From assembly GCA_021825585.1 (NCBI GenBank), contig JAKAGT010000013.1, positions 1-64,000 of the forward strand: a stretch of DNA of 64,000 nucleotides. Direction: 5' to 3'. Below, in pieces: positions 8,729 to 48,834 of this stretch (positions are counted from its first letter, which is position 1; the number at the start of each line of letters is the position of its first letter). Origin of the DNA: Bacteroidota bacterium (GTDB lineage: Bacteria; Bacteroidota; Ignavibacteria; Kryptoniales; JAKASW01). The notes beneath the pieces are model-generated. The model was given only the letters and a program-made list of their open reading frames with translations. It searched no databases and was not told the origin of the DNA. The translations under genes were made by a program, and so were the position numbers.

Positions 8729-10201
8729 TCATCCTTTGTTTCTCCTTTCTATTTGTCTAATCTTCAGGAACAGCAGCACTGCGAGCAGCGTGATTATAAG
8801 CGTAGCCACGCCGAGTCCATGTCTCCTGAAGTAGTATTCATCGACCGCCGCTAGCGCGCTCTTCTGAGCCCCGGCGACTATTTTCAATCCAGGTGCAGCC
8901 GCCGACTCCACCGATGTAGCGGCGAACGAATGAACCTGCACCCGCGCCTCTACCAGCGACTGATTGACATCTTTGAGAGAGTAGACCGCATCAGACACAT
9001 CCATTCCGAGTTGTTCTGCCCGTGAGAGAAGTGCCTCTGCATCTTTTCTGCCGCGCGTCAGACTGTCGAGTGTCCATCGGATTGCGATTATTGCGCCCGC
9101 AGCAGGGTCCGAAGTCATGTTTTTGTGGCATTTCCCGCATACACCACCTCCGTCGAATGCTATCATGGCGTCGAATGGTGGTTTCACGAGGTGATTGCTG
9201 TGACACACCACGCAGCCGGGGAGTTTCGCTTTCGCGAATGCCGCCCTGTGTACGCTCTTGTCGAACAAGTCCGCATTTGCCTGATGGCATGTTCCGCAGA
9301 CAGACGCGACTGACGACACGCCCGGAGGTACGGCCCCGTGATTACCGTGACAGGAATTGCATGCCGGCGCGCTCAAATCTGAATTTTGCAGGAGCGCTAT
9401 TCCATGCACGCTCTGTTTGTAATTCTCGTACTGGTCCGTGGGGATATGATATTCGGCCATGTACGCTTTATTGCTGTGACATCTGGCGCATGTCTCAGGG
9501 ATATTCGTCGGGTACACGGGCGAGCGCGGATCCTTGACTGGCCGGATGAGGTGATTCGAGTGGCAGCTTACACATGTCGCCGGTTTGGGATCTCCGGCCT
9601 CGTTTCGCTCGCCATGCACGCTCGTCAGATACTTCTCGTACTGGTCGACGGGTAATCCCGGGTTGAACTTTTTCATGTAATCCGGATTGCTGTGGCACTT
9701 TGCGCATGTCTTTGGGACATTGGTCGGATAAGCCGGCGACTTTACGGAACTTACGTCCGCGATATTATGTATACCGTGGCACGATATGCATGTCGGACCG
9801 TCGCTGCTCTGATTCAATGCCCTTCCGTGAACGCTTGACATAAACTGGTCCACCACATCGTCGAGATGATATTCATTCCTGAACGTCGTTCTCGCCAGCC
9901 CGTGACACTTCCCGCACATCTGCGGGATGGCGGATGGCTTCGGAACTCCGATGTATCCCTTCTTCGGATTCATCGCGGCATCCTGGTCCTCGACACTCGC
10001 GTTGCCGCCGTGACAGCCTGCACATGTGACACCGGCCTTGAAATGCACGTCGCTCATGTAAGACGCGGCTTCGTCGCTGCCGATGTCCGTATGGCAGCTT
10101 AAGCACTTGTCGACAGGCTTCTTCTCCTGCGTCCGTGCGTTGGAAACATTCGGCAAGGCAATCACAGCCAGAAAAACGAGAAAGATAATTATCTTTTTCA
10201 T
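8729..10201 (-). CDS. Membrane-anchored 11-heme cytochrome c
   Basis: Eleven CXXCH heme-binding motifs lie between about residues 33 and 375, in order CLSCH, CAGCH, CGKCH, CISCH, CAKCH, CVSCH, CARCH, CNSCH, CGTCH, CVVCH and CGKCH. The N-terminus is a signal peptide (MKKIIIFLVFLAVIALP) and a single hydrophobic anchor lies near the C-terminus (about 465-482), followed by basic residues. The frame is open further upstream to 10618, but the correct start is the ATG at 10201: it begins the signal peptide and overlaps the cytochrome b stop as ATGA. A stretch of about 85 heme-free helical residues separates the last heme from the anchor. As the third gene after Rieske and cytochrome b, it probably takes electrons from that complex in the periplasm. 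Confidence 0.93.
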   Translation of the reverse strand: MKKIIIFLVFLAVIALPNVSNARTQEKKPVDKCLSCHTDIGSDEAASYMSDVHFKAGVTCAGCHGGNASVEDQDAAMNPKKGYIGVPKPSAIPQMCGKCHGLARTTFRNEYHLDDVVDQFMSSVHGRALNQSSDGPTCISCHGIHNIADVSSVKSPAYPTNVPKTCAKCHSNPDYMKKFNPGLPVDQYEKYLTSVHGERNEAGDPKPATCVSCHSNHLIRPVKDPRSPVYPTNIPETCARCHSNKAYMAEYHIPTDQYENYKQSVHGIALLQNSDLSAPACNSCHGNHGAVPPGVSSVASVCGTCHQANADLFDKSVHRAAFAKAKLPGCVVCHSNHLVKPPFDAMIAFDGGGVCGKCHKNMTSDPAAGAIIAIRWTLDSLTRGRKDAEALLSRAEQLGMDVSDAVYSLKDVNQSLVEARVQVHSFAATSVESAAAPGLKIVAGAQKSALAAVDEYYFRRHGLGVATLIITLLAVLLFLKIRQIERRNKG

Positions 10202-11277
10202 TTCGCTCTCGCTCCGATTACTGTGAAGACTATGATGTAGAGAACGACTCCGATCCCGACGTAATTGACAATCCTGTTCCGTGAACCTTTCGACGTTTTG
10301 GAATCCCAGAACGGGACAAGGAACCACAGAAATCCCGCGAGCCCGAAGAGCGATATACCCAACACCTCCCCGTCGACGCCGAGAAGCTTTGGCGGGAAAA
10401 ACCTGAGCGACTGGAACATGAACAGGAAGTACCATTCGGGCTTTATGCCTATAGGAGCCGGAGCGAAAGGCTCCGCCTTGTGCCCGAGTTCCCAGGGGAA
10501 ATAGACAGCTAGAATTGCCAGCACGTTTAGCACGATAAGCCACAGAAGGACATCTCGCAGGACGAAGTTCGGGAAAAACGGGATATGGCTCTTCTTCGAT
10601 TCCGGCAGATACTTCCATGACTCCGGCTCGCTTATACCCTGTACCTGGATGAAAAGAAGGTGAACACCGAGGATGACCGTGAATAACGCGGGAAGCACCG
10701 CAACGTGAAGAGCGAAGAACCGGGTCAGCGTTGCGGTCGTTACATCGGAGCCATTACGGAGGACCTCCATGACCGGCTTGCCGACGAACGGCACGACGCC
10801 GACAATCTCCGTTCCGACCTTCGTCGCAAAATATGACAGGGTATTCCAGGGAAGCAGGTATCCGCTGAATCCGAAGGTCAGGCAGAGCGCAAGGAGGATA
10901 AAACCCGAGTACCAGGTTAGTTCTCTCGGTTTTCGAAATGCTTTTGTGAAATAAACGGAAAACATATGGATAATGACGGAAAGGATCATGAGATTAGCCG
11001 ACCAGCTGTGTATCGATCTGATCAGCCATCCGAACTGGACTTTCATCACGATAAACCTGACGCTCTCGTAAGCAGTCTGCGCACCAGGCTGGTAATACAT
11101 CAGGAGCAAAATTCCCGTCACCACCTGTACGATAAACAGGAAGAGGCTTACACCGCCGAAGTAATACCAGAACGAGCCTCTGAAATGCGGGACTTTTTTT
11201 TCTTCCGCGAAGTGCTCGATCAAGCTGAGATTGTAACGTTCATTGAGCCAGCGCATCATCTTCGATTCTTTGTTCAT
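10198..11277 (-). CDS. Cytochrome b of a Rieske/cytochrome b complex
   Basis: This 359-residue polytopic protein is a full-length cytochrome b, that is, a b6-type N-terminal part fused to a subunit IV-type part. The two heme-ligating His pairs are visible in RSIHSWSANLMILSVIIH and FFALHVAVLPA...GVHLLF. The quinol-site PEWYF motif occurs in IKPEWYFLFMFQ. About eight membrane spans are present, the last near the C-terminus. An AGGAGG-type ribosome binding site precedes the ATG. The gene starts 11 bases after the Rieske stop and its own stop overlaps the cytochrome c start, so all three subunits are probably made together. It would oxidise (mena)quinol in the inner membrane. Confidence 0.95.
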   Translation of the reverse strand: MNKESKMMRWLNERYNLSLIEHFAEEKKVPHFRGSFWYYFGGVSLFLFIVQVVTGILLLMYYQPGAQTAYESVRFIVMKVQFGWLIRSIHSWSANLMILSVIIHMFSVYFTKAFRKPRELTWYSGFILLALCLTFGFSGYLLPWNTLSYFATKVGTEIVGVVPFVGKPVMEVLRNGSDVTTATLTRFFALHVAVLPALFTVILGVHLLFIQVQGISEPESWKYLPESKKSHIPFFPNFVLRDVLLWLIVLNVLAILAVYFPWELGHKAEPFAPAPIGIKPEWYFLFMFQSLRFFPPKLLGVDGEVLGISLFGLAGFLWFLVPFWDSKTSKGSRNRIVNYVGIGVVLYIIVFTVIGARAK

Positions 11278-40816: not shown

Positions 40817-41176
40817 TCAGCTGCCGAGATAGATTATCTCGACACGCTTGACATCTCGCAGCTCTTTTGCCGTGATGGTTCTCACACCGGGCTGTTGAAA
40901 GTTAATCTCGGCATGTTCGTCACCCTTGGTACGATCCAACCGGACCAGGACATTGCTTGAACCGCGGAGCGTAATCCCTGGTTCTGCCGATAGGACATTT
41001 CCTGTCGCTATCACTGAAGCATCTTTGAGGCTGACCGGAGAAAAGTCCACTTCCGGCGCAGGGATAACAGTGACCGAGACTGTAATCGCTGCAGCCACCT
41101 GGGCACTTGATGTCGAAGCAAAAAGCACCAAACCGGCGAAGGTCAAGAGCGGCAATATCTTCAACGTATGTTTCAT
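40817..41176 (-). CDS. Small secreted beta-rich protein at the end of the fimbrial cluster
   Basis: From the ATG at 41176 the product is 119 residues, with a signal peptide (MKHTLKILPLLTFAGLVLFAS, cleavage near Ser-Ala-Gln). The mature part is about 94 residues and starts AAAITVSVTVIPAPEVDFSP, the same Val/Thr-rich opening as the pilins at 46.9-48.5 kb. It may be a truncated or minor pilin subunit. It is 285 bases downstream of the usher gene and separated from it by a hairpin, so it may be transcribed at a lower level or independently. Not recognised as a named family. Confidence 0.6.
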   Translation of the reverse strand: MKHTLKILPLLTFAGLVLFASTSSAQVAAAITVSVTVIPAPEVDFSPVSLKDASVIATGNVLSAEPGITLRGSSNVLVRLDRTKGDEHAEINFQQPGVRTITAKELRDVKRVEIIYLGS

Positions 41177-41413
41177 TGTCTCTGAGCACAAAGCTTCTAA
41201 GACAATGCCAAACGAGTTTCATTAGACGAAAGAGCCGGCCGCCCCTATATTCTATTGATTCTACGTTAGTTACAGAGTCGCCCTTTAGCCAGGCGGCTTT
41301 TCTCAGACCCGCGTTCAGGTAACTCTTTCTCAATTACATGAAAAAATTACCTGCGAAGGATGGCACTTGGGTTGGGGCAGCGGTCTGATGAAGGCGGAAG
41401 TCTCTTGATGGAG

Positions 41414-41461: not shown

Positions 41462-44400
41462 TCAGGGGAGTGAGATCAGGCGGGATGATGAGTACCCCTC
41501 AAAAGCTTGGATCAGCTTCAGTGCTGCCGATGCTTCTGCTCTGGTCTGGTATGTCGGTGTAATTACCATGAATTTCATCGTCTCATTATCGAAGTCTATG
41601 AGTGCAGTAAGACCGGTACGTCTTTGAAATTCGGCGGCGAAGTTTACGGCAGAATTGTGATTCAAGAACGTCCCAAGGAGTACCGTGAACAGATCCTTTG
41701 TCCGTTCCAAACCATAAACCGTTACAAAAGCACCGCTGTATCCGGGAGTCTTCTTCAAAGTATCCGCTGCCTCCTCGCATTCTCTTCTGCTATTGAAGAG
41801 TCCTATCATTACCGAAAAAAGCTGCGTAGACCGTCCGAACTGAACAATAGACTGCATGCCGTTTTCCTTGAGAATCCTGCTTGAATATTCCTTGGCAGCA
41901 GTCATTGAATGGAAAGCGGCGACCTGGATCGAAAACAAATAGTTCGTCCCCTGGTCAGAGGATGACACGATAAATGCGTCCCTGTAACGAGTCTGTCTGA
42001 TGATTGTCCTAAGCACATTCAACGCCCCCTCCTTGCCGTCCATCCTCTTTGTTTGCACGACATACAAACCCAATTTGACGTTGAAGTGCGTTCCGAATTT
42101 CATACCGGTTCTTGCCCTCGCCTCTTCGGCAAATAGCGTGGCACGACCCCGGCTCTTGAAGGATCCTATCTGCACGGAGAACCGGGCAGGAATAACAACG
42201 GAACGTGTTGTCTGAGCCTGCGGCACAACTGCATTGCGAGCGGGGGATTTTCCCGCAGGCCGGGACGACTTGGCCGATGTTCTGATCAGAGTTTCAGCAG
42301 GCGGTTTTTCCTTAGACTGGGCGGATTCCTGAGGCTTCCTGTCCCTCAATATTATCTTGAGTCCTTCGACATAATCGCCGTTCTTCGTCGGCTTGACATC
42401 AAATAGCAGTTTGGCCGGATCCGAATAGACACCGAGAACTGCAAGCTGGCTGGAGTCCACATACGCCTCATACCTGCCCGGCGGAAGTCCCATATAATAG
42501 AAACTGCCGTCGTAGAAAACAGTGATACTCCTATTGAATTCTCCGGACACCGATTTTAATTCCAGGGTCAGTCCGGAAATCGCGGACAATTTCCCGTCTT
42601 GCGACTTCAGTACGTGGCCGTCAATTACTCCTCCGACAAAGAAAGGCACATCGATTTTCTTGTAAGAATCGGGATCCGTAATAAATGAGAATGAGCTCTT
42701 CTCCGGTATCCATAAAGGGTTTCTGATGGAGTTTATGTCTACATCTGCACTGTACTGAGTGTAAGGAAGGAGATTCCAGTCTCTAATGATCCCGTCATTC
42801 GATCTCTCCGTAGACACGGCTTGTCTCAAAGGGACGTTTCCTTCCCTTATGACCTTTTCTCCCTCGTCATATTTCCCGTTGCCGTTAGCGTCGACAAACA
42901 TTCTTATCGACGCAGCTGAATGCCCTACCCAGCCTAGATCGTTGAACAAGAACTTTCCGTAATTGCTGTCGAAACCAACGGAGCCGCTGACGTTCTCAGT
43001 ATAATATCCGGAGCGGTTGTGGAACTGCGCGGAGGTCGTGGACCGTGTGAACGGGAGGTCGGCTATGATTTGCAGATTGAAAGTCGTCGCCCTGTTTATG
43101 TAATCCCTTTCAGCTGAGAAGGCTATTTGTATGTACTGCTGAATATTCCTGGTGAGTTGAAATGAAATGTTGTCGAGAGAGTTCTTCAGTACACCGTATC
43201 TACCATTCACGTTGAGAAGTGTCCCGTTCAGTAGATTAAAAGGACCCTGCCTGAAGAAGAATGAGTAGAGTATCGTCCCGGTGAGACTGTAGCTATTATA
43301 GGTCGCGCTGCCATAATCGATGATCGATTTGAGATAACCGATCGATGCGTTGAGCTGCGACAGGCTCGTCGAAAAATAACCGGAATAGCTGAAAGATTTC
43401 TGACCCCCCATGAATTCCTGGGCGTTTCCAGCCATCCTGAAATTGAAATTGGTACTCCCGATTGAGAAGGGCAGGTATGCATCCGCCTGCGCCTGTTGGG
43501 TCTGCATGCTCGGGTTATAGAGCAAATTCTGACGGTACTGCGTATACATCACATCGAAGGCTGCCTGGGACGCGTATAGGGCGTTGAAGGTTGACCTGTA
43601 GAACGCAGACGGAGCGGCGTCGATGCTCATCGTGTACTCCGATCCCAGCCTCAGATATAGCGAGTTATAGAGGAGTGGCTTTGAAAAGAGCGGGCTGTCC
43701 AGATAGTCCATTCCGATCTTGTCGCTCATCCAGTCAGTTACCCCAAACGCGACATTTCCCGATAAGAAATTATAGTCAGTGTTGTTCAGTTTTCCGCCGC
43801 TGATGGTGTAGTTGACTTGTCCGGCCGGAACGAAGGAAAAGGGTATCTGCAGTCTTCTGTCCGTCTCATTGAATTCCCCGTTCGGGCCGTAGTACTTAAG
43901 CTGTATGAACGAAGTCCCGTATACCAGAGGGATAGAGAATTCGGCTTTTCCCTGCGCATCAGCGCGCTTGTAGCCGACGAATTGACCGTTCACATAGAGA
44001 TCAACGTCCCAGTTAGGGCTTGTTTGAGCTCTTACTGTATACTCCCCGAAAAGCGTTCTGACGGCAAGGGGTTCATTGGATATCTGTGCGCCGCGGTATC
44101 CGTACGATGTCAAGCCGTCCGAGGAAAGGTTTCCAAGTGCGGCGTATGTTAAGTAAACCGAAGAATCGACGGCGTACTTCCAGCTGAAGGTGCTCGAGTA
44201 GATGCTCGAAGTGTTCCCCACGAAGGCACCAAGCACGCTACCCTGAGTCTCGCCTCCGAGAATCTCTGCGCCACCGGTAAGCTCGTAATTATAATTCGAC
44301 CGTCCCGCGCCATCATAGGCCGACAACGAATAATTAAGCACGCCGCCATTCAATAGATTCCTTTTTCTCGGGAAGGCCAGCGGTGCCTGGAGCAAGTTCC

Positions 44401-44911
44401 CCGTGGGTGAGAAAAGCTCGTATCGCCTCCGTATTTGTCTCTTGTAATCCTCGACAATTGGCAATTTCTGATCGGTAGTGAGCGATAAGGAGAGAGAACT
44501 GAAATCGACACTGAAATTCAGGCCAAATATTTTCCTGAAGAATGACGGCAACGCATAAAAATCGAGTTGACCTGCTATTACCGTTGAAGTGTCGAACCTG
44601 ATTTCTTTCCCTCCGACTCTCGCAACACCTGCTGCAAAGTCAATCTGATATTTATCTGAGGGGGCTGTGTAAAATCCCTTGAGCGTTTTCGAGCGCAAGT
44701 CCAAAGAGTTGTCAACCCTCAGCTGCTTGAAGACCGCACTAACTGGAACATAAACGGAGTCGTTGAGATAGAGGGCTGTAATTACGGTGTTGACCAATCC
44801 GCTGAAGGTAAAAGATAGATATATTTCCTCTGCCTGCGAATTCCCGGGGACTGCCTTTACAGGAGATTCCTCGGATCCCGCTGCTGCGCTGGAAGCAGCG
44901 AGTAATGTCAC
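41462..44911 (-). CDS. Usher-like outer-membrane protein with C-terminal SPOR-like repeats
   Basis: This is the outer-membrane assembly platform of the fimbrial operon, 1149 residues from the GTG at 44911. The N-terminal periplasmic part (about 30-150) is followed by a long beta-barrel region. A plug-like beta domain contains VDLYVNGQFVGYKRADAQG and FIQLKYYGPNGE, a pattern seen in FimD/PapC ushers. A calcium-loop-like DANGNGKYDEGEK (about 690) and a carboxypeptidase-regulatory-like sandwich follow. A Pro/Lys/Ser linker then leads to three similar units of about 80 residues with SPOR character (FSVQIGSFKSRGRATLFAEE, FSIQVAAFHSMTAAKEYSS, FTVLLGTFLNHNSAVNFAAE). SPOR domains bind denuded peptidoglycan. 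The frame continues upstream to an ATC at 44947 that would give a complete signal peptide; see findings. It follows the chaperone gene. Confidence 0.82.
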   Translation of the reverse strand: MTLLAASSAAAGSEESPVKAVPGNSQAEEIYLSFTFSGLVNTVITALYLNDSVYVPVSAVFKQLRVDNSLDLRSKTLKGFYTAPSDKYQIDFAAGVARVGGKEIRFDTSTVIAGQLDFYALPSFFRKIFGLNFSVDFSSLSLSLTTDQKLPIVEDYKRQIRRRYELFSPTGNLLQAPLAFPRKRNLLNGGVLNYSLSAYDGAGRSNYNYELTGGAEILGGETQGSVLGAFVGNTSSIYSSTFSWKYAVDSSVYLTYAALGNLSSDGLTSYGYRGAQISNEPLAVRTLFGEYTVRAQTSPNWDVDLYVNGQFVGYKRADAQGKAEFSIPLVYGTSFIQLKYYGPNGEFNETDRRLQIPFSFVPAGQVNYTISGGKLNNTDYNFLSGNVAFGVTDWMSDKIGMDYLDSPLFSKPLLYNSLYLRLGSEYTMSIDAAPSAFYRSTFNALYASQAAFDVMYTQYRQNLLYNPSMQTQQAQADAYLPFSIGSTNFNFRMAGNAQEFMGGQKSFSYSGYFSTSLSQLNASIGYLKSIIDYGSATYNSYSLTGTILYSFFFRQGPFNLLNGTLLNVNGRYGVLKNSLDNISFQLTRNIQQYIQIAFSAERDYINRATTFNLQIIADLPFTRSTTSAQFHNRSGYYTENVSGSVGFDSNYGKFLFNDLGWVGHSAASIRMFVDANGNGKYDEGEKVIREGNVPLRQAVSTERSNDGIIRDWNLLPYTQYSADVDINSIRNPLWIPEKSSFSFITDPDSYKKIDVPFFVGGVIDGHVLKSQDGKLSAISGLTLELKSVSGEFNRSITVFYDGSFYYMGLPPGRYEAYVDSSQLAVLGVYSDPAKLLFDVKPTKNGDYVEGLKIILRDRKPQESAQSKEKPPAETLIRTSAKSSRPAGKSPARNAVVPQAQTTRSVVIPARFSVQIGSFKSRGRATLFAEEARARTGMKFGTHFNVKLGLYVVQTKRMDGKEGALNVLRTIIRQTRYRDAFIVSSSDQGTNYLFSIQVAAFHSMTAAKEYSSRILKENGMQSIVQFGRSTQLFSVMIGLFNSRRECEEAADTLKKTPGYSGAFVTVYGLERTKDLFTVLLGTFLNHNSAVNFAAEFQRRTGLTALIDFDNETMKFMVITPTYQTRAEASAALKLIQAFEGYSSSRLISLP

Positions 44912-45026
44912 AAGAACGCCTACCCAAAAATACCTTCGCGCGCGGATTTGCTACTCCCACGTAATTCTTTTTGCCAACCTGCCAACGAGACCTTTAAGGA
45001 AAGACACCCTACGGAATGATGCGCAA

Positions 45027-45848
45027 CTACTGGATGCTGAAACTAATCGTTTTCTCGACTGCTGGAATCTTTAGCAGGTCTTCACTCGCAATATCATTCC
45101 TTTTAGATTCCAGTTTAAATTCAGCAGTATAGTTGCCGGCGTGTAAATCGGAAAGAGGCACGGTGAATCTTATAAATGCAGCGCTTTGGTAAATGGCGAG
45201 GACCTCCTCATTTGTGTAGACGCTTCTGCCCGCGCCGTCCTTTACGACTATCGACATCGTGCCGAAAAATGGAGAATTCCCTCCGTGGGAAACGTGCGCC
45301 ATCAGACCCATTGCCGTAGAATCAGGGATTGTATCAACTTTCCCGATATCAACAGTTGTGTTAACATAGCCCTTCTTGTAGATGACGGTAGTAACCTGTT
45401 GAAGGATGAAGGTGATACTCGTCCTAATGCCGCTCCCCGCCGTGTCGATGGCCTTTGCCTGAGGTGTCGAGCTCGTGACCAATCTCGTCCAATATTCACC
45501 GTCCGGGATATCTGCTGGGCCCGTAACCAAGAGTCGGACCACCTGCTCTTGTCCTGGGTTGATAATAAATCTCTGAGGAAATCCCCGCAGCCATTGTTGG
45601 CATGAATGCTCGCGAGCCATCAACGTGTCATTATATTGCATGCTTAAATTGCCAAGAGAGTCGTATGCCGGGAATCCGAACTTGAACGAAATCGTGATTT
45701 CCTGAGGAGAGTCTGACCGATTCATAACGAGAAAAGTGCCGAAGGGTGACTGATCGCTCAAGAACAGTACTGTGGGCGCAACGACGACCTGAGCTCGCGC
45801 GGCAGTAATTGACGCCAGAATCAAGAGAGCAGATAATATCTTCTTCAT
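45027..45848 (-). CDS. PapD-like fimbrial chaperone
   Basis: The 273-residue periplasmic protein has a signal peptide (MKKILSALLILASITAARA) and an Ig-like domain of the pilus chaperone type. It begins VVVAPTVLFLSDQSPFGTFLVMNRSDSPQEITI, like the G1 strand region of PapD/FimC-type and DUF4402-associated chaperones. FIINPGQEQVVRLLV corresponds to the conserved Pro-Gly segment ahead of the F strand. A second beta domain (about 150-273) follows. It would hold pilin subunits and deliver them to the usher encoded next. The neighbours, pilins before and usher after, support the call more than any single residue. Confidence 0.82.
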   Translation of the reverse strand: MKKILSALLILASITAARAQVVVAPTVLFLSDQSPFGTFLVMNRSDSPQEITISFKFGFPAYDSLGNLSMQYNDTLMAREHSCQQWLRGFPQRFIINPGQEQVVRLLVTGPADIPDGEYWTRLVTSSTPQAKAIDTAGSGIRTSITFILQQVTTVIYKKGYVNTTVDIGKVDTIPDSTAMGLMAHVSHGGNSPFFGTMSIVVKDGAGRSVYTNEEVLAIYQSAAFIRFTVPLSDLHAGNYTAEFKLESKRNDIASEDLLKIPAVEKTISFSIQ

Positions 45849-45888: not shown

Positions 45889-46830
45889 TCAATAGCTTAC
45901 AGTAAGAGTGAATGTCCCTTTGTAGCTGCCGGACTTCTTCGTACGTGGGACTGATTTCAGCATGCCCCCTAACCAGAAATAGTAGTTCCCAGTTTCACCT
46001 CTGCTCAGTTCCAACTCAGTCCCGGAGGGGACCGGAGTAGAGCCGGTCTGATTCACCTGACTGCTTGAACCATAGACACTGGGAGTGAATGTCAGCGTAT
46101 GACCGTGGCAGTCACTCAAGGTTACCGTTGAATGATATGAGACAGAAATTTCCTTGCCCGGGGCTCCTGCAGCAGTGAACATCGGCACATTTGGATCATA
46201 CTGTGCGCTCAAAGAGGGAGGATGAGTACCCGCAACAATCTGCCCGAAATCAAGCGACCCGGCGGCTGCGAGCGAGAGAGTCGGGATTATTGTTACCCTG
46301 ATATCTATCGTTTGAGTGGCCGTCGCTGTCTTGCCTTCGCCGACATCCACCGTCCCGACCACCGTTATCTCCCCTCTGTAGATCCCGGCAGCTTGTTCGA
46401 CATCCGGACTTATGGTTGCTCCGATCCAAAAATAAATTGTCGTCCGAGTGTTGGGTGCGACCGGTATTCCAGCTAGTCCCTGAGATGGGTCAAAACATGT
46501 GCTCCCCGATAGGCAGTTTGCAGAATTGTAGGCCGCCGAGTTTGCTCCAAAAATAATTGGCAGCGTATTGCCCTCCGATGTTAGATTCCTGGGTAAAGCG
46601 AAATTGAACGAGGCTATACCTGCCTTCTTGCTATTAGTTTTGAAGCGGGATGCAATTTCCCCCGCGCCCGGTCTGAAAACAGTAATGTTAATGCTTGTAT
46701 TAGTAGGCACCGTGCCAAACGACACGTCCTGGACGAGAGTAAATGCGATTTTAGGATTTTGCGCACTCGCTTTCCCTGAACCGAGCAGCATTGCGACAAT
46801 GAGAACGGCGCCGCATAACGCTCGATTCAC
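45889..46830 (-). CDS. Two-domain pilin or tip adhesin (DUF4402-like)
   Basis: The GTG at 46830 has GGAGGGGGA upstream. The 313-residue product has a signal peptide and two DUF4402-like beta domains. The first (about 25-175) carries a Cys pair in ANCLSGSTCFDPSQG. The second (about 185-313) starts SLAAAGSLDFGQIVAGTHP and ends with the same YYFWLGGML...GSYKGTFTLTVSY as the single-domain pilins. A two-domain subunit in a chaperone-usher operon usually sits at the fibre tip and binds a ligand. It is the last structural subunit before the chaperone gene. Confidence 0.75.
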   Translation of the reverse strand: MNRALCGAVLIVAMLLGSGKASAQNPKIAFTLVQDVSFGTVPTNTSINITVFRPGAGEIASRFKTNSKKAGIASFNFALPRNLTSEGNTLPIIFGANSAAYNSANCLSGSTCFDPSQGLAGIPVAPNTRTTIYFWIGATISPDVEQAAGIYRGEITVVGTVDVGEGKTATATQTIDIRVTIIPTLSLAAAGSLDFGQIVAGTHPPSLSAQYDPNVPMFTAAGAPGKEISVSYHSTVTLSDCHGHTLTFTPSVYGSSSQVNQTGSTPVPSGTELELSRGETGNYYFWLGGMLKSVPRTKKSGSYKGTFTLTVSY

Positions 46831-46883: not shown

Positions 46884-47450
46884 TCAATACGTTACCGCTA
46901 CCGTATATGTCCCGCTGTAACTGCCGGCGGGGACGCTCCCCACATTGATTGATCCGTATAAATAAACGTAACCCTGATAGTTTTTACCGGCCACATGGGT
47001 GTTTAGTTTGAAACTCGTTTGTCCTGAGGGAAACATCGATGTGGCGGTAGAAGGATCGTCTGCCGACGAGTTGTAACCGGCTCTCGGAGTATAGACAATG
47101 GTGTTGCTGCCATTCGTCAGCGAGGAAGGCGGCGTCAGAGTGACATAAACGGTCTTATTGCTTCCCCCGATTGTGACGTGACCGGCGCTTGTGCTGGTAA
47201 TTGCCACCGAATCGACGCCTGTTCCGGAGACAACGCTCCCGAAACTAAGATTCCTATCTACGTAGATTGTCAGGCCTGCGGCAACCCCAATCTTGATAGT
47301 TGCGGTTTGTGTGGACGAAGTCTGGGCTAAGATGCTGGACGGCGTTGAGAAGCTGATAATCAAAATCGCCAAGACAATCGCCCACAGTCTTGCCCAAGGC
47401 TGTGAAGGAGTTGTACTCCAGAATTTCCCTATGTAAACTTTCCATTTCAT
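46884..47450 (-). CDS. DUF4402-like pilin, third subunit
   Basis: This 188-residue secreted subunit starts at an ATG sharing one base with the stop of the preceding pilin gene (TGATG). The signal peptide is longer than in its siblings (hydrophobic core ending at ILAQ, about residue 43). The mature part opens TQTATIKIGVAAGLTIYVDR and ends GSINVGSVPAGSYSGTYTVAVTY, the shared C-terminal strand of the family. The last strand pattern (alternating hydrophobics ending in Tyr) is what chaperone-usher donor-strand systems use, but here it lies at the C-terminus. Confidence 0.78.
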   Translation of the reverse strand: MKWKVYIGKFWSTTPSQPWARLWAIVLAILIISFSTPSSILAQTSSTQTATIKIGVAAGLTIYVDRNLSFGSVVSGTGVDSVAITSTSAGHVTIGGSNKTVYVTLTPPSSLTNGSNTIVYTPRAGYNSSADDPSTATSMFPSGQTSFKLNTHVAGKNYQGYVYLYGSINVGSVPAGSYSGTYTVAVTY

Positions 47451-47983
47451 CAGTATGACACCGTTAAACTGAAAGTACCCGTATACGTCCCGCCTGCCTG
47501 ACCACTTGGTACAACGACGCTTCCACCCAACCAGATATAATAAGAACCTGTGCTGCTTATCGTTATCTTACCGCCGCTCGACAAAGCGGGTGCAGTTGAC
47601 TGGTTGCTGGACAGTGTGTCTCCAACAACCTGCGGTGTAAATGTCAATGGGGTATAAGTACTGTCCGACAGTGTAACTGGCGTCGTGAAGGAAAGGTTCA
47701 TCAGCATCCCGGCTCCTCCACCAATTGTGAACAGACCCGCTGAGGAGCTTGTGTTGGGATTGACCGTCCCCATGCTCCCATCAAGAACCAAACTGAAGTT
47801 GAGGGTGCCAGCCCCGTCGCTTCCGCCCGAAAGAGTAGTGGAAACGGGTGCTACAACCGAAGCTGTAACGGCCACATTGGAACTCTGTGCATTTGCAGCA
47901 TTCACCAGGAAAAGAACCAGAAGGCCCAGCGCAACGGCCAGGCCTTCCCTAATTCTACGGAAATTTAGGAAGCTGCGAATCAC
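47450..47983 (-). CDS. DUF4402-like pilin, second subunit
   Basis: The 177-residue product has a signal peptide (hydrophobic LAVALGLLVLFLVNAANA) and a single DUF4402-like domain with the ending YYIWLGGSVVVPSGQAGG and TGTFSLTVSY. The only start that keeps the signal peptide is a GTG at 47983. An in-frame stop lies three codons upstream and no ribosome binding site precedes it; instead the reverse complement of one (AACCTCCT) is there. Expression probably depends on re-initiation after the first pilin gene, whose stop is 18 bases upstream. Confidence 0.75.
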   Translation of the reverse strand: MIRSFLNFRRIREGLAVALGLLVLFLVNAANAQSSNVAVTASVVAPVSTTLSGGSDGAGTLNFSLVLDGSMGTVNPNTSSSAGLFTIGGGAGMLMNLSFTTPVTLSDSTYTPLTFTPQVVGDTLSSNQSTAPALSSGGKITISSTGSYYIWLGGSVVVPSGQAGGTYTGTFSLTVSY

Positions 47984-48001: not shown

Positions 48002-48505
48002 TTAATAAGCAACAGTAACTGTCAGTGGCTTACCACTAAGGTTGGCTGTTGAATAGCTTCCCGTAGGAGCGGACCCGGGATTGATGCTGCCGCCAACTGA
48101 TATGTAGTATGTGCCAGTCCCCGAGATAGTACCTGAACTCCCTGTGTTAGTGGTTAAGTTTCCACCTGACACACCGGCTGAGACACTGCTGCCATATAGA
48201 GCAGGCGTGAAGCTTATTGGGTTACTGCCATTGCCATCGGTAAGCGTAACATCCGTGTTCCAGCTGATTGTGAAAGCTGTGCTCGCTTGACCGGACACGG
48301 TGAGCTGTGCAGCGCTGCCGCTTGTTGCGGAGACCGTCGTGGTCGTGTTTTGAGCGACGTTTCCCATCGCCAGGGTTGCGGTTGTTGCTGTTATCGATAT
48401 AGGTGAGATTACAGTTGCCGTGACAGCAACATTCGCACTCGTTTGCGCGAGCGATATCCCGGCAAGTCCGAGAACCATCGCCGTGGCGAGCATTAGTTTT
48501 TTCAT
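48002..48505 (-). CDS. DUF4402-like major pilin, first subunit
   Basis: The ATG at 48505 has AGGAGG seven bases upstream and starts a clean signal peptide (MKKLMLATAMVLGLAGISLA). The 167-residue product is Thr/Ser/Gly rich without Cys or His. It matches the DUF4402 family: TSANVAVTATVISPISI at the start, SFTPALYGSSV in the middle and YYISVGGSINPGS to the end VTVAY. First position and strong ribosome binding site suggest it is the major fibre subunit. A 329-base leader separates it from the upstream GH31 stop. The frame is open further upstream to 48793 but that part is not protein-like. Confidence 0.82.
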   Translation of the reverse strand: MKKLMLATAMVLGLAGISLAQTSANVAVTATVISPISITATTATLAMGNVAQNTTTTVSATSGSAAQLTVSGQASTAFTISWNTDVTLTDGNGSNPISFTPALYGSSVSAGVSGGNLTTNTGSSGTISGTGTYYISVGGSINPGSAPTGSYSTANLSGKPLTVTVAY

Positions 48506-48610
48506 TTCTAACCTCCTGTGGATTAATTTGTTGTTTGAAATCTTCCGGTAGAAACTTCTTACCTTAATATCTTCTTGAAACTGTTCAGGAATCTTATGTC
48601 CCTTGACCGA

Positions 48611-48703
48611 GGCGATACGACAAACCGTATGCCGGAGAAAAGGCTCTGATCCGAAAGGAATTCGATGTTTTTGGGGGGTGCCTTTTCGACTGGTTACGTA
48701 ACC
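48611..48703 (-). promoter_or_regulatory. Pilin operon leader: hairpin and 12-bp palindrome
   Basis: In the 329-base gap upstream of the first pilin gene, GGTTACGTAACC (48692-48703) is a perfect palindrome next to an AT-rich TTAAATATTAC on the minus strand, fitting an operator at a promoter. Downstream, GGCGATACG/CGTATGCC (48611-48619 and 48626-48633) forms a hairpin with one bulge. No known riboswitch consensus, including the c-di-GMP types, could be recognised. Confidence 0.4.
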
Positions 48704-48834
48704 GTAATATTTAATCCGGCAAATGTAACACACAGGAAAGGCCGATCCGCCGGAGAAGGCAAAACCACATGGACTCGCCAAGCCACACTGCAAGAAAGCC
48801 TATGTGAGCCCTGTGATTATGTGGTTAGAAATTA

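Follow-up and report, generated by a model that had tools for sequence, protein, structure and literature searches.

A divergent usher with three C-terminal SPOR domains and its probable tethering to peptidoglycan

The closest described relatives of the system considered here are the classical ushers FimD and PapC (Pfam PF00577), which combine a 24-strand barrel, a plug after strand 6 and C-terminal Ig domains, and whose chaperone and subunit genes lie upstream. Pili carry load, and to our knowledge little work has addressed what keeps a chaperone-usher platform in place in the outer membrane. The second point of comparison is the SPOR domain. These domains are septal markers and in vitro bind glycan from which the peptides have been removed; in the RlpA-glycan complex side-chain contacts are made by Q270, R302 and R309, F274 has a packing role and R311 belongs to the basic patch (PMC6895207).

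We analysed a 64,000-nucleotide stretch of a Bacteroidota genome (contig JAKAGT010000013.1, positions 1 to 64,000), referred to as the window. An intact reading frame on its minus strand (41462..44947) had been described in an earlier note, from the sequence alone, as an usher-like protein ending in three SPOR-like repeats. All window features given below lie on the same strand. We assign a probability of about 0.68 to the reading that the window encodes a divergent chaperone-usher platform whose SPOR tail would tether the pore to peptidoglycan.

Usher core and operon

Counted from GTG 44911, its earliest ATG, GTG or TTG, the frame 41462-44947 gives 1149 residues, and none of these three codons stands ahead of the signal peptide. 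At position 44947 an ATC codon begins (44945-44947), preceded by a GGGAG Shine-Dalgarno sequence. The block GGGAG-N6-ATC(-TGC-GCA), at 44945-44960 of the window, is kept in several congeners (L036-L043). This conservation suggests a rare ATC start codon, and ATC 44945-44947 appears more likely to be the usher start than GTG 44911.

The AlphaFold2 model of the usher was built with 27 sequences (mean pLDDT 80.9). It contains a barrel (residues 187-648, 42968..44353) of 6+18=24 strands, a count taken from the order of DSSP elements and not from coordinate inspection; by the same order, a six-strand plug (residues 287-356, 43844..44053) is inserted between strands 6 and 7. Two C-terminal Ig-like domains follow (strands within residues 665-857, 42341..42919), with weak Pfam similarity to SdrD_B and CarboxypepD_reg. 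The periplasmic N-terminal domain (residues 28-145, 44477..44830; weak Cu_amine_oxidN1-like match) is folded in the model, and the VIA-align rows against ushers begin only at about residue 168. In a Foldseek search of the PDB, ranks 1-19 are all FimD or PapC (E 2.4e-31). The same proteins come out on top in VIA-align, with Z 23.1 across 623 residues, and the alignment with FimD reaches model residue 854.

Pfam PF00577 gave no match to the window usher at E 1, the curated cut-off of 27.1 bits not being reached, and none to 27 relatives at 0.01; a sequence-profile search of the PDB with the core found no usher. The relative L213 matches PF00577 (E 3e-4), and it is in the plug region that the weak PF00577 matches of relatives fall. 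When the family profile was compared by hhalign with 11 PF00577 ushers from other genomes, a match of 636 collinear columns was obtained (Prob 98.8, E 4.7e-17). The 11 ushers were required for it, a single classical usher giving only Prob 1.2; the chaperone profile, as a negative control, gave Prob 0.25. Judged from the profiles and the model, the window protein is a true but remote usher homologue, lying outside PF00577 as drawn, and in this respect the earlier note was right.

The chaperone and DUF4402-type genes sit upstream of the usher, up to 48793. The PapD-like periplasmic chaperone (45027..45848) matches PapD_N weakly (E 0.005, under the Pfam cut-off); 9 of 18 relatives match it as well, the best with 1.6e-6, and a PapD-like chaperone gene adjoins the usher at nearly all loci. 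Beyond it are encoded a secreted protein with two DUF4402 stretches, a candidate tip subunit (45889..46830; Pfam E 2e-11), two DUF4402 subunits (46884..47450, narrowly short of the cut-off with E 4e-5; 47450..47983, E 4.5e-6) and a DUF4402-like subunit with its true start inside the ORF (48002..48793; E 0.02). Downstream of the usher lies the gene of a small secreted subunit-like protein without a Pfam match (40817..41191), and eight further members of the genus likewise have a homologue of this protein behind the usher. A second usher copy of similar length, 29-45% identical, is present in several genomes of the genus (G001, G002, G007, G009, G011 and G012); PF00577 ushers were found neither in the window's genome nor in the two congeners checked. 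The order DUF4402 - chaperone - usher also occurs on plasmids of Polaromonas, Novosphingobium and Pseudoalteromonas, where the ushers are annotated as 'carboxypeptidase-like regulatory domain', 'SdrD B-like' or 'hypothetical'. DUF4402 chaperone-usher systems across several phyla have been missed by annotation.

Tails and motor genes across the usher family

The usher core was found in 89 of the 395 genomes sampled from the phylum, spread over 32 of 170 genera, and also in Proteobacteria, Thermodesulfobacteriota (Desulfobacterota), Acidobacteriota and Myxococcota. Those relatives that have a name are MAGs entered as Bacteroidetes bacterium or Candidatus Kryptoniota. Tails of at least 75 residues are present in 61 of 121 distinct homologues. 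The survey for fused SPOR domains that had been proposed earlier finds them in 38 of these 61, with TPR in eight, OmpA in two and LysM besides SPOR in one by Pfam; a few of the SPOR labels depend on weak matches (L117 E 0.05, L055 E 0.004). The OmpA-type domains (ushers of L022 and L023) and the SPOR plus LysM combination (L018) occupy the same C-terminal place. To place SPOR on the tree of cores, 14 changes of label are required, at least 12 of them falling on well-supported branches. Given this recurrence among homologues, we rejected the view that the tail is peculiar to a single genome.

Five gammaproteobacterial loci (Vibrio, Thalassomonas, Marinifaba, Catenovulum and Pseudoalteromonas) have separate SPOR genes a few kb at most from the usher and on its strand; the chance of such a neighbour, estimated from genome SPOR density, is about 2% per locus. 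They were called from Pfam results mapped by exact ORF length, our own SPOR model being too insensitive. In most betaproteobacterial relatives the tail is absent and no SPOR neighbour was detected, and the same holds for Massilia, Polaromonas and many other relatives. Since so many members have neither, anchoring is not essential to the core machine.

A different arrangement is found in f38, one family of the phylum. There, ushers that lack SPOR have a TPR segment at their C-terminus, and directly 3' of them, on the same strand, follow genes for a FliG-type protein, a TPR lipoprotein-like protein, MotA and a MotB-like protein in which OmpA and SPOR domains are combined. The FliG-type protein, about 620 aa long, matches FliG_M (E 8e-12), FliG_C (E 3e-11) and FliG of the PDB (E 2.6e-20); in 3 of 7 there is in addition a weak match to FliF-C. 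The MotA match has E 1.7e-16. The PDB match of MotB is of the MotB/PomB type (E 8e-26), and its Asp D33, beside the membrane plug motif, is invariant; the f37 MotB has no SPOR domain. The loci with the motor block are L199-L205 and L212-L214 (f38/f37). Among rows with typed tails the block accompanies all eight TPR tails (seven in f38, one in f37) and none of the 15 SPOR tails, and tail and motor switch in six phylogenetically independent pairs, in one direction throughout (sign test p 0.03). By ORF length alone, a FliG-type gene adjoins the f38 usher in 14/14 genomes where the latter has 996-1028 aa and in 0/22 where it has at least 1163 aa. Within f38, SPOR tail and motor block exchange in gene content. 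The possibility that the SPOR tail was born by recent deletion of motor genes was rejected, because the usher cores of L133 and its sister L200 are close, yet the L133 tail is only 27.7% identical to the SPOR region of the L200 MotB. The window usher has no motor genes alongside, and the sole FliG of its genome is encoded elsewhere and has an ordinary size (383-aa frame).

L209 (6829-11901), L210 (7595-12684) and L211 (4692-9723) contain a paralogous FliG-type/MotA/MotB locus, the second of its kind, which has no usher but includes two more genes of unknown type; in these motor-bearing genomes the paralogous FliG-type loci adjoin rpoBC (L211) and a penicillin-binding-protein gene (L209). At L199 the TPR tail of the usher looks, by eye, similar to the TPR lipoprotein whose own gene (9994-10494) is the second one downstream, and the two might possibly form a docking pair.

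We put forward, tentatively and with the odds somewhat against it, that the usher family exists in two exchangeable forms. One, represented by the window, would be static, its usher fastened to the wall by the SPOR tail; in the other, motorised form an otherwise similar usher would be acted on by MotA, MotB-OmpA-SPOR and a FliG-type rotor protein, the last perhaps carrying a FliF-like fusion. The latter form would be an ion-driven flagellar-type motor turning or pulling a chaperone-usher pilus. If this is the case, the exchange of SPOR tail and motor would reveal motor-driven chaperone-usher pili, of which we found none described: the open-access literature gave nothing on topic for FliG/MotB and ushers in Bacteroidetes, and a review of ion-driven 5:2 motors leaves ushers unmentioned (PMC9389320).

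SPOR units and the role of the tail

The Ig-like domains are followed by a Pro/Lys-rich linker (residues 860-907, 42191..42334), noticed earlier in the sequence and disordered in the model (pLDDT under 50), and by SPOR units 1 (residues 911-983, 41963..42181), 2 (992-1066, 41714..41938) and 3 (1074-1148, 41468..41692). In a separate model of residues 905-1149 (pLDDT 88) each unit has the order beta-alpha-beta-beta-alpha-beta of an RNP-like fold. Pfam SPOR (PF05036) matches the tail with E 5e-15 and 56 bits versus a cut-off of 21; one match is centred on unit 2 and one straddles units 2 and 3. Nearly all of the highest VIA-align rows come from known SPOR domains: unit 1 pairs with that of CwlC (Z 10.4), unit 2 with that of DedD (Z 8.0) and unit 3 with that of RlpA (Z 9.7). 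The top row is 6ozd, an uncharacterised exported protein (Z 11.5, unit 1), and with this exception the rows for non-SPOR structures have Z 5.0 or less. Foldseek alone puts a generic ferredoxin-like fold above SPOR, which is expected because the SPOR fold is small and common. Modelling, which the earlier note had named as the check on both halves of the protein, thus returned a 24-strand usher barrel and SPOR folds for all three units (VIA Z 8-10 versus solved SPOR domains).

Of 19 aligned tails, 18 keep the Gln equivalent to RlpA Q270 in unit 1 (Gln914) and most keep it in unit 2 (Gln996); both units retain the QxxS/A-F motif. In unit 3 the glycan-contacting Gln is replaced by Leu1078. At the positions of RlpA R309/R311 there are V/Q in unit 1, S/M in unit 2 and M/I in unit 3, so that the arginine patch is missing. 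However, CwlC has K/Q at these positions, which makes the patch (R302/R309/R311) a feature of RlpA and not universal to SPOR domains. Units 1 and 2 are plausible as putative glycan binders.

In the wall-tethered platform that we favour, the PapD-like chaperone would hand DUF4402 subunits to the usher pore, which would polymerise and export them. After the Ig domains, a flexible 48-residue linker would lead to three SPOR domains in the periplasm. These would tie the pore to peptidoglycan, so fixing the usher within the outer membrane, and the tether would transmit the pulling force of the fibre to the wall. Fibre formation, peptidoglycan binding and load bearing are what we infer beyond the observed fold, homology, operon and recurrence. 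The peptidoglycan tie suggested earlier is strongly supported by comparison: SPOR has been gained or lost repeatedly, other wall-binding domains stand in its place, and separate SPOR genes accompany ushers in other phyla. Since SPOR, LysM, OmpA and MotB-OmpA-SPOR share wall attachment, the most economical reading is that in many lineages the family needs a mechanical link to peptidoglycan, either direct, as in the window, or via a partner. What counts against a tether is that RlpA R309/R311 are not retained in units 1-2, that Gln is missing from unit 3 and that many relatives show neither a tail nor a SPOR neighbour. As this widespread family repeatedly gains wall-binding parts, wall anchoring of ushers becomes directly testable.

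The best surviving alternative, which we consider unlikely but deserving attention, is that the tail serves as an address label: by binding denuded glycan, it would make pili appear at septa or at newly formed poles. Such a role agrees with the glycan preference and septal marking known for SPOR domains (PMC6895207) and with the motif retained in units 1 and 2, whereas the missing arginine patch and the degenerate unit 3 speak against it, and the swaps with OmpA and MotB-OmpA-SPOR, which are general wall anchors, favour anchoring. Septal or polar placement, the less supported half of the earlier proposal, would be a further property of SPOR; it draws no support beyond the presence of these domains and is possible at most. 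The lost arginines and the lost Gln of unit 3, together with the TPR tails at the equivalent place in other members, could alternatively mean that the units have turned into protein-protein modules that dock a periplasmic pilus partner and no longer bind glycan. We find this more doubtful still, because the Gln is so widely kept in units 1 and 2 and because wall binding is the sole property common to the OmpA and LysM replacements. Least probable is that the exported DUF4402 proteins form a surface coat without fibres and that the anchor merely spaces pores, for although we found no published DUF4402 function (the open-access literature yielded no mention of the domain, an absence that is not proof), the plug, the chaperone, the several subunit genes and the two-domain candidate tip gene fit the layout of a chaperone-usher pilus.

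Comparison with known systems

The earlier statement that no usher so built is described agrees with our searches of the open-access literature, where usher and SPOR met only in incidental co-mentions and no published description of either the usher-SPOR or the usher-motor arrangement was found. It needs to be amended in that the architecture is common and has been overlooked, because RefSeq does not name such proteins ushers.

The window usher thus shares with FimD and PapC the barrel, the plug, the Ig domains and the upstream chaperone and subunit genes. In contrast to them, it is PF00577-negative, only 11-14% identical to solved ushers and extended by a linker and three SPOR domains, and its subunits are of the DUF4402 type instead of the classical pilin families. 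With CwlC, RlpA, DedD and FtsN it has in common the SPOR fold of all three units and the Gln motif of units 1-2; unlike in these proteins, the SPOR domains form a tandem triplet, are joined to an outer-membrane secretion pore and have lost the arginine patch. As to the MotB/OmpA wall anchors, MotB-OmpA-SPOR would assume the wall-binding role in related operons. However, MotB is an inner-membrane stator, whereas in the window it is the outer-membrane pore itself that bears the putative anchor.
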